From assembly GCA_027620395.1 (NCBI GenBank), contig JAQBZY010000016.1, forward strand, positions 1-11,245: DNA of 11,245 bases, written 5' to 3'. Source of the DNA: Pseudomonadota bacterium (GTDB taxonomy: Bacteria > Pseudomonadota > Alphaproteobacteria > Rhodospirillales > Casp-alpha2). Under the pieces are notes generated by a model. It searched no databases. It was not told the origin of the DNA and saw only the letters and a list, made by a program, of their open reading frames with translations. Shown here piece after piece: positions 8,231 through 10,370 of this stretch (position 1 is its first letter; the number at the start of each line of letters is the position of its first letter). A program made the position numbers and the translations under genes.

Positions 8231-8320
8231 CTTCGTTGGCGGTTCAAGTTTCTTTCACACCATTGTGAGGACATGCGATGGCATCGTGACGGGCCTTTGC
8301 GGCGCGCATGGCTACACTTG

Positions 8321-8349
8321 TTGGTGCCAGCAAGGAAGCCCGGTAATAT
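8321..8349 (+). promoter_or_regulatory. Candidate sigma-70-type promoter for the bufferin operon
   Basis: A good -10 element, TAATAT (8344-8349), lies 27 bases ahead of the bufA start. TTGGTG (8321-8326) is 17 bases upstream of it as a weak -35. The overlapping CTTGTTGG-TG-CCAGCAAG (8317-8334) is an imperfect dyad that covers the -35 and could be a regulator site. Copper control is known for other bufferin operons, but no specific regulator box could be confirmed here. Confidence 0.4.
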
Positions 8350-8376
8350 TTTTTCATCATGTAGGAGTCCTCGACG

Positions 8377-8643
8377 ATGTCCATCCAAAATAGAATGATC
8401 GGCATGACCCTGGCGACCGCCGCCGCTGCGTTGTTCATTTCCGGCGCCGCCATGACCGCCGCGCCGTCGTCGGCCTTGGCCGACAGCGTCAAGTGCGCTG
8501 GCGCCAATGCCTGCAAGGGTCAGGGTTCTTGCAAGAGTGCGAAGAACGACTGCAAGGGTCTGAATTCCTGCAAGGGTCTGGGCTGGGTTTCGACCGCCAC
8601 CGCCAAGGAATGCATGGAAAAGGGCGGCAAGGTAGCGAAGTAA
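8377..8643 (+). CDS. bufA: Bufferin-type RiPP precursor, exported six-cysteine peptide (BufA2-like)
   Basis: This small 88-residue protein has a signal peptide (hydrophobic stretch at about 9-29, likely cleavage after SSALA at residue 35). The mature peptide of about 53 residues has six cysteines at 40, 46, 52, 59, 65 and 79. They sit in a repeating CKG-type pattern (CAGANACKGQGSCKSAKN, then CKGLNSCKGLGW) ending with Trp70 and a CxxxGG tail. This matches small cysteine-rich substrates encoded beside DUF692 enzymes. In Caulobacter such bufferins carry enzyme-made thiooxazole groups and sequester copper in the periplasm, so the same job is inferred here. It does not match the DUF2282 (BufA1) layout, which has a KCYGVAKAGKNDCA-type start, so BufA2-like is the better guess. 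AGGAG lies 9 bases ahead of the ATG. A terminator-like hairpin follows the stop. Confidence 0.85.
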   Translation: MSIQNRMIGMTLATAAAALFISGAAMTAAPSSALADSVKCAGANACKGQGSCKSAKNDCKGLNSCKGLGWVSTATAKECMEKGGKVAK

Positions 8644-8649
8644 TCTCGC

Positions 8650-8709
8650 CGGATCTGTCGTCTTGAAACCCTTCGGGGGGCCGGTTTGTTGGCCTCCCGA
8701 TCCGTTTTT
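8650..8709 (+). terminator. Terminator-like hairpin between bufA and bufB (probable partial terminator)
   Basis: An outer stem CGGATC (8650-8655) pairs with GATCCG (8699-8704), which runs directly into TTTTT (8705-8709). Inside it GGGGGGCC (8675-8682) pairs with GGCCTCCC (8691-8698) with one G-T wobble around an 8-base loop. The shape is that of a rho-independent terminator placed inside the operon. Read-through must supply bufB and bufC unless they have their own promoter, which was not seen in the 82-base gap. Confidence 0.6.
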
Positions 8710-8725
8710 CAGCTAGCATTCGAGC

Positions 8726-9577
8726 ATGAAAAGCAGAGCCCACAATTTTTCCGGCTTCGGACTCGGCTTCCGGCCGCAGCATTTTCCGGATATTCTCGGT
8801 GGCGCGAACGCCGCCGACGGCGTCGATTGGTTCGAGATCATCTCGGAAAACTTCATCGGCGTCGGCGGCATGCCGATGCGAAATCTGATGCGGGTAAGTG
8901 ACGACTATCCGATCGTCATGCATGGCGTTTCGCTTTCCATTGGCGCACCGGATCCTTTGGACCGGGATTATCTGCAAGGCCTCATGGACTTGGCCGAGCG
9001 GCTGCAACCAGAGGTGATTTCCGATCACCTTTGTTGGACCGGCGCGCACGGCGTCAATCTGCACGACTTGCTGCCGTTGCCGTTGACTGCGGAGACCCTC
9101 GTCCACGTCGCAGACCGGGTCGGACAGGTGCAGGATTTCCTGGGCCGCCGTATCGCGCTCGAAAATGCTTCGACCTATGTGACTTTCACCGCCGATGCGC
9201 GCAGCGAATGGGAATTCTTGAGCGAGCTTTCCGAGCGCGCCGATTGCGAACTTCTGCTCGACGTCAACAACGTCTATGTGTCGGCCTTCAATCACGGCTT
9301 CGACGCGGCCGATTATATCGCCGGTTTGCCGGCCAAGCGGATCCGGCAAATTCATTTGGCCGGGCACGAAAACAACGGCGATCACATCGTCGACACGCAC
9401 GATGCGCCGGTCGCGGATCCGGTTTGGGATCTGTATCGAGATACCATCCGGTTGCTCGGGCCGGTGCCGACGATGATCGAGCGCGATGCCAACATTCCGC
9501 CGTTCGCCGACTTGGTGGCGGAATTGCAACTCGCCCGCGAGGCCGCTGGCAAAGCCGGACATGGAGCCGCCGCGTGA
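8726..9577 (+). CDS. bufB: MNIO family (DUF692) bufferin-modifying oxidase BufB
   Basis: This is a 283-residue multinuclear non-heme iron-dependent oxidative enzyme with a TIM-barrel-like fold, related to MbnB, TglH and ChrH. It is expected to oxidise cysteines of the BufA precursor to thiooxazole-type groups in the cytoplasm before export. The family motifs appear in order: SENF (40-43), HGVSLSIG (66-73), SDHLCW (99-104), ENASTY (146-151), DVNNVYVS (179-186) with NH at 189-190, QIHLAGHE (208-215), DTHDAPV (223-229) and ERDANIP (252-258). The His, Glu, Asp and Asn residues in these motifs are the iron ligands of the family, and none appears missing. No strong ribosome binding site precedes the ATG (only GAG within 5 bases), which fits low enzyme output relative to bufA. 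Its TGA overlaps the bufC GTG. Confidence 0.95.
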   Translation: MKSRAHNFSGFGLGFRPQHFPDILGGANAADGVDWFEIISENFIGVGGMPMRNLMRVSDDYPIVMHGVSLSIGAPDPLDRDYLQGLMDLAERLQPEVISDHLCWTGAHGVNLHDLLPLPLTAETLVHVADRVGQVQDFLGRRIALENASTYVTFTADARSEWEFLSELSERADCELLLDVNNVYVSAFNHGFDAADYIAGLPAKRIRQIHLAGHENNGDHIVDTHDAPVADPVWDLYRDTIRLLGPVPTMIERDANIPPFADLVAELQLAREAAGKAGHGAAA

Positions 9578-10370
9578 ACACGGGGCTTGCCGAATTACAG
9601 CGCCTTTTTCAAGACCGGCTGCTCGCCGGCGGGAACGATATTGAACGTCATCTGAAGGACCGGGGGCCGTTTCTCAAGGTTTACGATCACGCCTATCTGG
9701 CCCGGCTGCTCGAAGTCATGGGCGAGGACTTTCCGGCCGTTCACACCTTGCTCGGCGACGACCAGTTCGGGGACGCGGCGGTAGCGTTTGTCCGCGCGCA
9801 TCCGTCTCGGGCCCGATCGATCCGTTGGCTGGGCGCCGGTTTTTCGGCATGGCTGAGGGAAGCCGATCCTTGGCGGAACTTGCCCGTTGTTGCCGACATG
9901 GCCGCCTTCGAGTGGGCGCTCGGTCTCGCGTTCGATGCGCCGGACAGCGAACCGGTCGGCATGCCGGCCCTGGCGGCGGTGCCGGCGGAAGCCTGGCCCG
10001 GGCTACGCTTCGAATTCCATCGCTCGCTCAATATTGTCCGCCTCGCCGTCGATGTGGCGCCATTTCAACGGGCGGTGGCGGCGGAACGCGACCCGGAAGC
10101 CGCACCCGAGCCCTTGTCCGAGCCCGGGGACTGTGGGGGGTTTGGCGCGACCTGGAAAGCTTGCAGGTGCGCTATCGGCCGCTACCGGTGGATGAGGCGG
10201 CGGGGCTCGATTGCCTGAGATCGGGCGGCGATTTCGCGGCACTTTGCGAGGTTTTGGCCGAATTCGGCGACCCAGACGCCGCCGCCGTCCGGGCCGCTGG
10301 CCTGCTCAAGGCGTGGCTAGAAGCCGGCTGGCTCACCGATCTGAGTGCCGACGGCCTGAGTTGGACCTAG
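9574..10370 (+). pseudogene. bufC: BufC (DUF2063 family) with a -1 frame break near 10110-10143
   Basis: DUF2063 proteins are encoded with DUF692 enzymes and are thought to recruit the precursor to them. The GTG start at 9574 overlaps the bufB stop in GTGA, and GGAG lies 7 bases upstream. The first frame gives about 180 family-like residues: the DUF2063 N-terminal domain (LQRLFQDRLLAGG through IRWLGAGFSAWLRE, about 7-95), then a middle part to AVAAERDPEAAPEP. That frame then runs into unrelated sequence and stops at 10218. The expected C-terminal part (VWRDLESLQVRYRPLPVDEA to LSADGLSWT) continues in the -1 frame and ends at TAG 10368-10370. Restoring one base gives about 265 residues, the usual length. 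A run of six G at 10135-10140 is a plausible place for a lost base. This could be a real mutation, a sequencing error, or recoding. Confidence 0.85.

Follow-up and report, generated by a model that had tools for sequence, protein, structure and literature searches.

Which peptide system do three adjoining genes, bufA, bufB and bufC, encode in a stretch of alphaproteobacterial DNA of 11,245 nucleotides, and what turns them on? The stretch (the window hereafter, bases 1-11245 of contig JAQBZY010000016.1) comes from a draft genome of 441 contigs that is 67% complete, and a sequence-only reading of it had proposed a ribosomally synthesized and post-translationally modified peptide (RiPP) operon of the bufferin type. 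In our assessment, the three-gene set is very probably a Buf2 bufferin (Cys-Lys captophorin) operon of an uncultured alphaproteobacterium, which would supply an exported copper-binding peptide. The operon itself is ordinary and its class has already been published; what is new is a conserved control element before bufA, and this is a modest lead. The identities of the genes, their order, the pattern of Cys residues in the precursor, the conserved residues of the enzyme, the promoter element and a break in the frame of bufC can all be read from the DNA directly.

The Operon and Its Family

The genes bufA, bufB and bufC are consecutive, and are flanked by a gene for an HNH endonuclease and by rpsD. 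BufA reaches 84.7 bits against the NCBIfam model for BufA2 (NF050166, cut-off 60), a favorable outcome of the profile search that had been suggested for the precursor, and BufB reaches 364.2 bits against the BufB model (NF050167, cut-off 310). Both equivalog models thus exceed their cut-offs, in keeping with the proposed bufferin-type operon, and a chance origin of the three features is excluded by these family scores. The gene order had been likened to that of Caulobacter operons, and it does match the Cu-induced CCNA_03001-03000-02999 (PMC8224329, PMC3511200), a Buf2 operon that shares with the window a six-Cys precursor with a signal peptide that is putative in the window, a BufB-type MNIO enzyme and a DUF2063 partner. 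The description of the class as less studied has to be given up, as it is the named Buf2/BufA2 family, also the Cys-Lys group of captophorins (PMC12452194, PMC13097082). The Buf2 family has thousands of members, and six Cys residues are found in 90% of the members of BufA2 (PMC12452194).

The Cys residues of BufA are at positions 40, 46, 52, 59, 65 and 79, a spacing of 6-6-7-6-14. Homologues of BufA number 330 at E<=1e-3, the window's own included, and the Cys residues were analyzed in the 120 of these that were listed. In every one of the 114 proteins whose mature part has six Cys, the first five are spaced 6-6-7-6 and Lys-Gly directly follows Cys 2 and Cys 5; 100 of them have Lys after Cys 3, and 106 have it after Cys 4. 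Cys-Lys motifs such as these define one of three groups of captophorin precursors (PMC13097082). The view that the precursor is of the CKG-repeat kind rather than DUF2282 is borne out by the CKG motifs with their conserved Cys spacing, and DUF2282 was not matched. At its N-terminus, BufA has a hydrophobic stretch ending in ALA|D, a candidate Sec-type signal. Of the signal-bearing, Cys-rich peptide that had been described, the six Cys in an open reading frame (ORF) of 88 aa stand, and the export signal is judged by eye. Membership of Buf1 (DUF2282) was considered and set aside, with no Pfam match for BufA at E<=1 and nothing in the draft genome matching DUF2282. Some BufA2 homologues carry a PF10048 label, which was not reproduced when six of them were rescanned; the same six scored as BufA2.

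The assignment of BufB to the DUF692 enzymes is upheld by its match to PF05114 (DUF692/MNIO, E 7.3e-108) and by the presence of all twelve motif residues; it also matches a solved structure, PDB 3bww (E 3.2e-49). These twelve, H66, D100, H101, E146, N147, D179, N181, H210, D223, H225, E252 and D254, are the same in all 86 Buf2-type sequences, the window's included. Among 14 remoter MNIO proteins (<53% identity), 11 of the 12 positions are kept, and Asp 100 is mostly Glu. Members of this invariant His/Asp/Glu set would bind the metal. At residue 255, which directly follows the conserved ERD, the window has Ala, aligned with Phe in 3bww; over the 86 sequences this column holds Ala in 60, Asp in 24 and Gly in two.

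This residue bears on how closely the window resembles other systems. Like the Cys-Lys captophorins, it has several Cys-Lys motifs and a pair of an MNIO enzyme and a PME1 partner, but in the Cys-Lys enzymes Asp is reported to replace Phe250 of FonB, a position beside the catalytic Asp (PMC13097082), where the window has Ala if the columns are matched through 3bww. Should residue 255 correspond to Phe250 of FonB, Asp would be the minority state among the 86 BufB sequences, a sample that was drawn around the BufB of the window. Fontiphorin/oxazolin, with its EGKCG repeats, likewise combines an MNIO enzyme, a PME1 partner and an exported Cys-rich peptide; its repeats are, however, Lys-Cys and not Cys-Lys, and BufC falls far below the HvfC cut-off of 142, with 26 bits in the window and 36-51 in three intact relatives. 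Methanobactin, made by MbnBC with a partner of another class, has a role in copper uptake. Unlike BufA with its candidate signal, the methanobactin precursor has no signal peptide (PMC12452194).

A Conserved Element before bufA

Alignment of the upstream regions gives an ungapped block, TCAC-N6-GTGA-N17-GTKAC-N22-hexamer (8255-8318 in the window), in which a dyad and a half-site precede a -10-like hexamer (Table 1). The window shares the first 36 nt of the element with 14/14 other distinct loci whose bufB is at least 65% identical. Among these 15 loci, the half-site is GTGAC in 11 and GTTAC in four, and the hexamer is TACACT in 12, with TATTAT, TAATAT and TATGCT found once each. The mean information is 1.83 bits in the core columns, 0.80 in the spacers and 0.46 in the flanks. 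A search of 41 genomes with the 36-nt pattern gave one match each in eight, as compared to one for the reversed control; six of the eight lie before bufA, and the other two come from genomes in which bufB was not matched (G001, G014). When one mismatch was allowed, six genomes gave 25 matches against seven for the reversed control, and 8/25 were at the bufA promoter. Seven other one-mismatch contexts, inspected by eye, look unrelated and show nothing copper-related.

The dyad by itself is also concentrated before BufA2 genes. Over 86 distinct loci, it occurs 42 times in the 37,273 nt lying at most 320 nt before a precursor and eight times in the remaining 762,040 nt, making it about 107x denser before these genes. 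It is present in 31/86 loci (55/86 are without it), and 42 of the 117 precursor starts that were located mechanically have it. In a second sample of the class, comprising 385 genomes of which 28 have a BufA match, the window's own included, the dyad is found in six of 28 readable upstream regions, with 0.07 in shuffles; the two samples overlap at least in part, the element of L139, one of the six, being identical to that of L036 in the first set. Named loci in which a precursor is preceded by the dyad are titled Rhodospirillaceae, Rhodospirillales, Alphaproteobacteria, Pacificispira, Reyranella or Enhydrobacter, and the remaining titles are two of just Proteobacteria and one Mesoflavibacter; none is Gammaproteobacteria.

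Several individual loci deserve mention. The element is present at a locus (L041) of Pacificispira spongiicola, a cultured relative. The locus titled Mesoflavibacter (L031) is a bufABC locus with the same promoter element, and its title is probably wrong, since its bufB is 74% identical to that of the window. Three loci (L058, L077 and L079) have tandem BufA2 precursors, three per locus with the dyad upstream. At tandem-precursor loci, the precursor that adjoins bufB mostly lacks the dyad, and in these three it has none. Two loci of one genus (L007, L010) have a further CTCACG half-site some 20 nt before the dyad, which suggests a third binding site.

Table 1. Positions of the operon genes and putative control features in the window.
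Feature	Position	Strand	Basis
Dyad TCAC-N6-GTGA, first operator-like site	8255-8268	+	14/14 relatives, fixed spacing
Second half-site GTGAC, 21 bp from first GTGA	8286-8290	+	exact N17 in 15/15
-10-like hexamer TACACT, 22 nt past half-site	8313-8318	+	sequence conservation
bufA, BufA2-family precursor, 88 aa, six Cys	8377-8643	+	NCBIfam NF050166
Terminator-like hairpin then GTTTTT, between bufA and bufB	8673-8705	+	folding energy
bufB, MNIO (DUF692) bufferin maturase, 283 aa	8726-9577	+	NF050167, PF05114
bufC N-terminal part (DUF2063 and start of RRE-like domain)	9574-10218	+	PF09836, then out of frame
bufC C-terminal part (rest of RRE-like domain), another frame	10131-10370	+	identity to P0003

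Candidate Regulators of the Element

In Caulobacter, the Buf2 operon depends on SigF (PMC3511200, PMC8224329), and its SigF-dependent start has been mapped by 5' rapid amplification of cDNA ends (PMC3511200). The window differs in that it has no outstanding SigF box and has another conserved element instead. A SigF-type box with up to two mismatches is matched eight times in the window against 8.3 expected, and none of the matches is upstream of bufA; a SigF box was consequently rejected as the bufA promoter, its matches being at chance level. A LysR-type reading was based on geometry alone, with the dyad near -65 and the half-site near -35, and was dropped in favor of a sequence match to published sites of the CenR type.

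These published sites come from two species. The srlA promoter of S. meliloti has AGTCAC-N6-GTGACT at -42, mutation of this site makes the promoter less active, and CenK-CenR is needed (PMC9561847). In R. sphaeroides, the CenR consensus is TGA-N8-TGA, and 28/31 sites are just upstream of the -35 (PMC9275681). If CenK-CenR reads the element before bufA, the bufferin would belong to an envelope-stress regulon instead of the SigF copper regulon. We consider this unlikely, even though the dyad is identical to that in the srlA promoter of S. meliloti (PMC9561847), seven of the 31 listed R. sphaeroides sites fit T[CG][AG]C-N6-GTGA by our own count, and one (RSP_2718) is TCAC-N6-GTGA exactly (PMC9275681). 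With the start assumed to be 7 nt past the hexamer, the dyad and the half-site would be centered at about -63 and -37, and a position in this range fits an activator. A CenR-like regulator was found in genome G000 and in nine of 10 relatives, and the chance-level matches of the window to the SigF-type box point the same way.

Two expected targets of such a regulon speak against it, however. No such site is present in the 350 nt upstream of 9/9 readable cenR-like genes (10 are present), nor upstream of tolQ at 9/9 intact loci, even when the pattern is loosened enough to fit the tolQ site of R. sphaeroides; operon starts before ruvB were outside this search. Both cenR and tolQ are CenR targets in R. 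sphaeroides, and the CenR table for that species, in the portion available, has no DUF692 target (PMC9275681). Moreover, the one-mismatch matches to the 36 nt that fall outside bufA appear unrelated, judging by the seven viewed.

Proposed Maturation and Choice of Metal

The hairpin between bufA and bufB folds with -21.8 kcal/mol (z -3.44), and none of 200 shuffles folds equally well. A hairpin of -9 kcal/mol or better with a T-run is found in 38/79 bufA-bufB gaps, the window included, a count made without a shuffle control. The hairpin is possibly a partial terminator that gives more peptide than enzyme.

From these elements we infer the chemistry, the export, the copper binding, the start of transcription and the action of a regulator. 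Transcription from the predicted start would be driven by two activator-type sites upstream of the -10 element, and the hairpin after bufA may hold the level of the enzyme below that of the peptide. BufA would be made in the cytoplasm with its Sec-type signal peptide, and BufB, guided by the RRE-like domain of BufC, would turn Cys residues within the Cys-Lys motifs into 5-thiooxazoles by oxidation. Export of the peptide and removal of its signal after A35 may then follow, leaving a mature peptide of 53 aa that, in the periplasm, would bind copper present in excess. If the pattern of Buf1 holds here, a disulfide would join C40 to C79, and the modified residues would be C46, C52, C59 and C65; the calculated mass of the mature peptide is 5288.38 Da when modified and with the disulfide, versus 5306.52 Da when reduced and unmodified. 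The 5-thiooxazole has been reported for bufferin 1 and EGKCG peptides, and for Buf2 the literature consulted gives just an AlphaFold model. The earlier remark that the modification pattern of this class is not settled is, therefore, fair.

A bufferin-like metallophore could also serve a metal other than copper, or supply metal rather than buffer it. Fusions of MerC and Buf2 point to metals other than copper in some members; bufferin operons have, in addition, been called gold-induced (PMC12452194). Yet the Caulobacter homologue is copper-induced, though its regulon answers chromate and cadmium too (PMC8224329, PMC3511200), and the family matches of the remaining genes of the window include no mercury, gold or metal-uptake gene. 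Another metal or a supply function is thus quite improbable, and copper binding is retained.

The Frame Break in bufC

Several points weigh against the proposed Buf2 account of the locus. The assignment of the disulfide and of the modified Cys residues is carried over from Buf1, and DoxX has no match in the 67%-complete genome. Furthermore, the bufC frame that opens at 9574 stops at 10218, after 214 aa, and the frame is broken between about 10119 and 10131, cutting the RRE-like domain. Of the DUF2063 gene that had been described, the GTG start at 9574, overlapping the bufB stop by 4 nt, and the match of the N-terminal part to PF09836 (DUF2063, E 7e-18) are confirmed, but the gene is not one open frame, and the end that was given for it, 10370, spans two pieces rather than one ORF. 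The N-terminal part is 66% identical to an intact relative, P0003, and the C-terminal part is 68% identical over 77 aa to P0003 residues 188-264. The HvfC model covers bufC to position 107 of 237 in the window, as compared to 232 in P0003. A sequence search of solved structures with the in-frame piece of BufC gave no match.

Both halves of bufC were located in 75/86 distinct loci (11 lack one or both matches), and they are in one frame in 74/74 of the other loci with both found, the window being the sole exception. In 79/79 other loci, likewise, the longest complete ORF that follows bufB measures 237-358 aa, versus 214 aa in the window. A programmed frameshift was rejected on the one-frame arrangement of the 74 loci and because inspection by eye showed no standard slippery site. 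Comparison with nine relatives gave no clear indication of relaxed selection in the displaced C-terminal part: its ratio of nonsynonymous to synonymous differences (pN/pS) is 0.38-0.58, against 0.17-0.72 for the same part among intact relatives, and the ratio is higher in the C-terminal than in the N-terminal part for 7/9 window pairs and 20/28 control pairs, which is no difference. The break would, so, be a recent event or a draft-genome error, given the single frame at 74/74 other loci and the lack of a clear sign of relaxed selection.

Either the assembly is wrong at this place, or the operon of this strain would be newly impaired. In the second case, bufC is truly frameshifted in the living strain, and the precursor would be exported unmodified or the system would be silent. 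The break stands in the assembly, at one of 75 loci with both halves; it leaves the shortest ORF after bufB and severs the RRE-like domain, and no second MNIO gene was matched in the 67%-complete draft genome. Against such decay, the pN/pS of the C-terminal part is no different from that of intact relatives, and bufA, bufB and the promoter are all intact. Among the protein clusters listed, none lies between 66% identity and the window's own to show an intact bufC of the same species. As the draft genome is in 441 contigs, an assembly error at bufC is at least as likely as a true lesion. A decaying copy is, on balance, a doubtful though real prospect, and the locus continues to be read as a Buf2 operon.

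Neighboring Sequences

Outside the operon, an ORF at 2558-3295 matches circularly permuted YpsA (PF12694). Its long open start overlaps CarD (2274-2792), and translation probably begins further inside the ORF. Neither the Rfam nor the tRNA scan of the window gave a match.

Implications for Bufferin Control

Sigma/anti-sigma genes have been reported for Buf1 clusters and not for Buf2 ones (PMC12452194), and the control element is the useful part of this locus. A site of fixed geometry, present once per genome in the six genomes, of 41 searched, that have a close bufB, permits a direct search for the regulator. A wider proposal would be that alphaproteobacterial bufferin-2 operons are under a regulator of envelope stress from the OmpR family, either CenR or a related protein, acting through the conserved double-site promoter, with the dyad repeated at Reyranella-type tandem precursors. 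This is a tentative idea of low probability. If true, it would link a copper-buffering RiPP with the general homeostasis of the envelope, separately from the copper circuit under SigF in Caulobacter.
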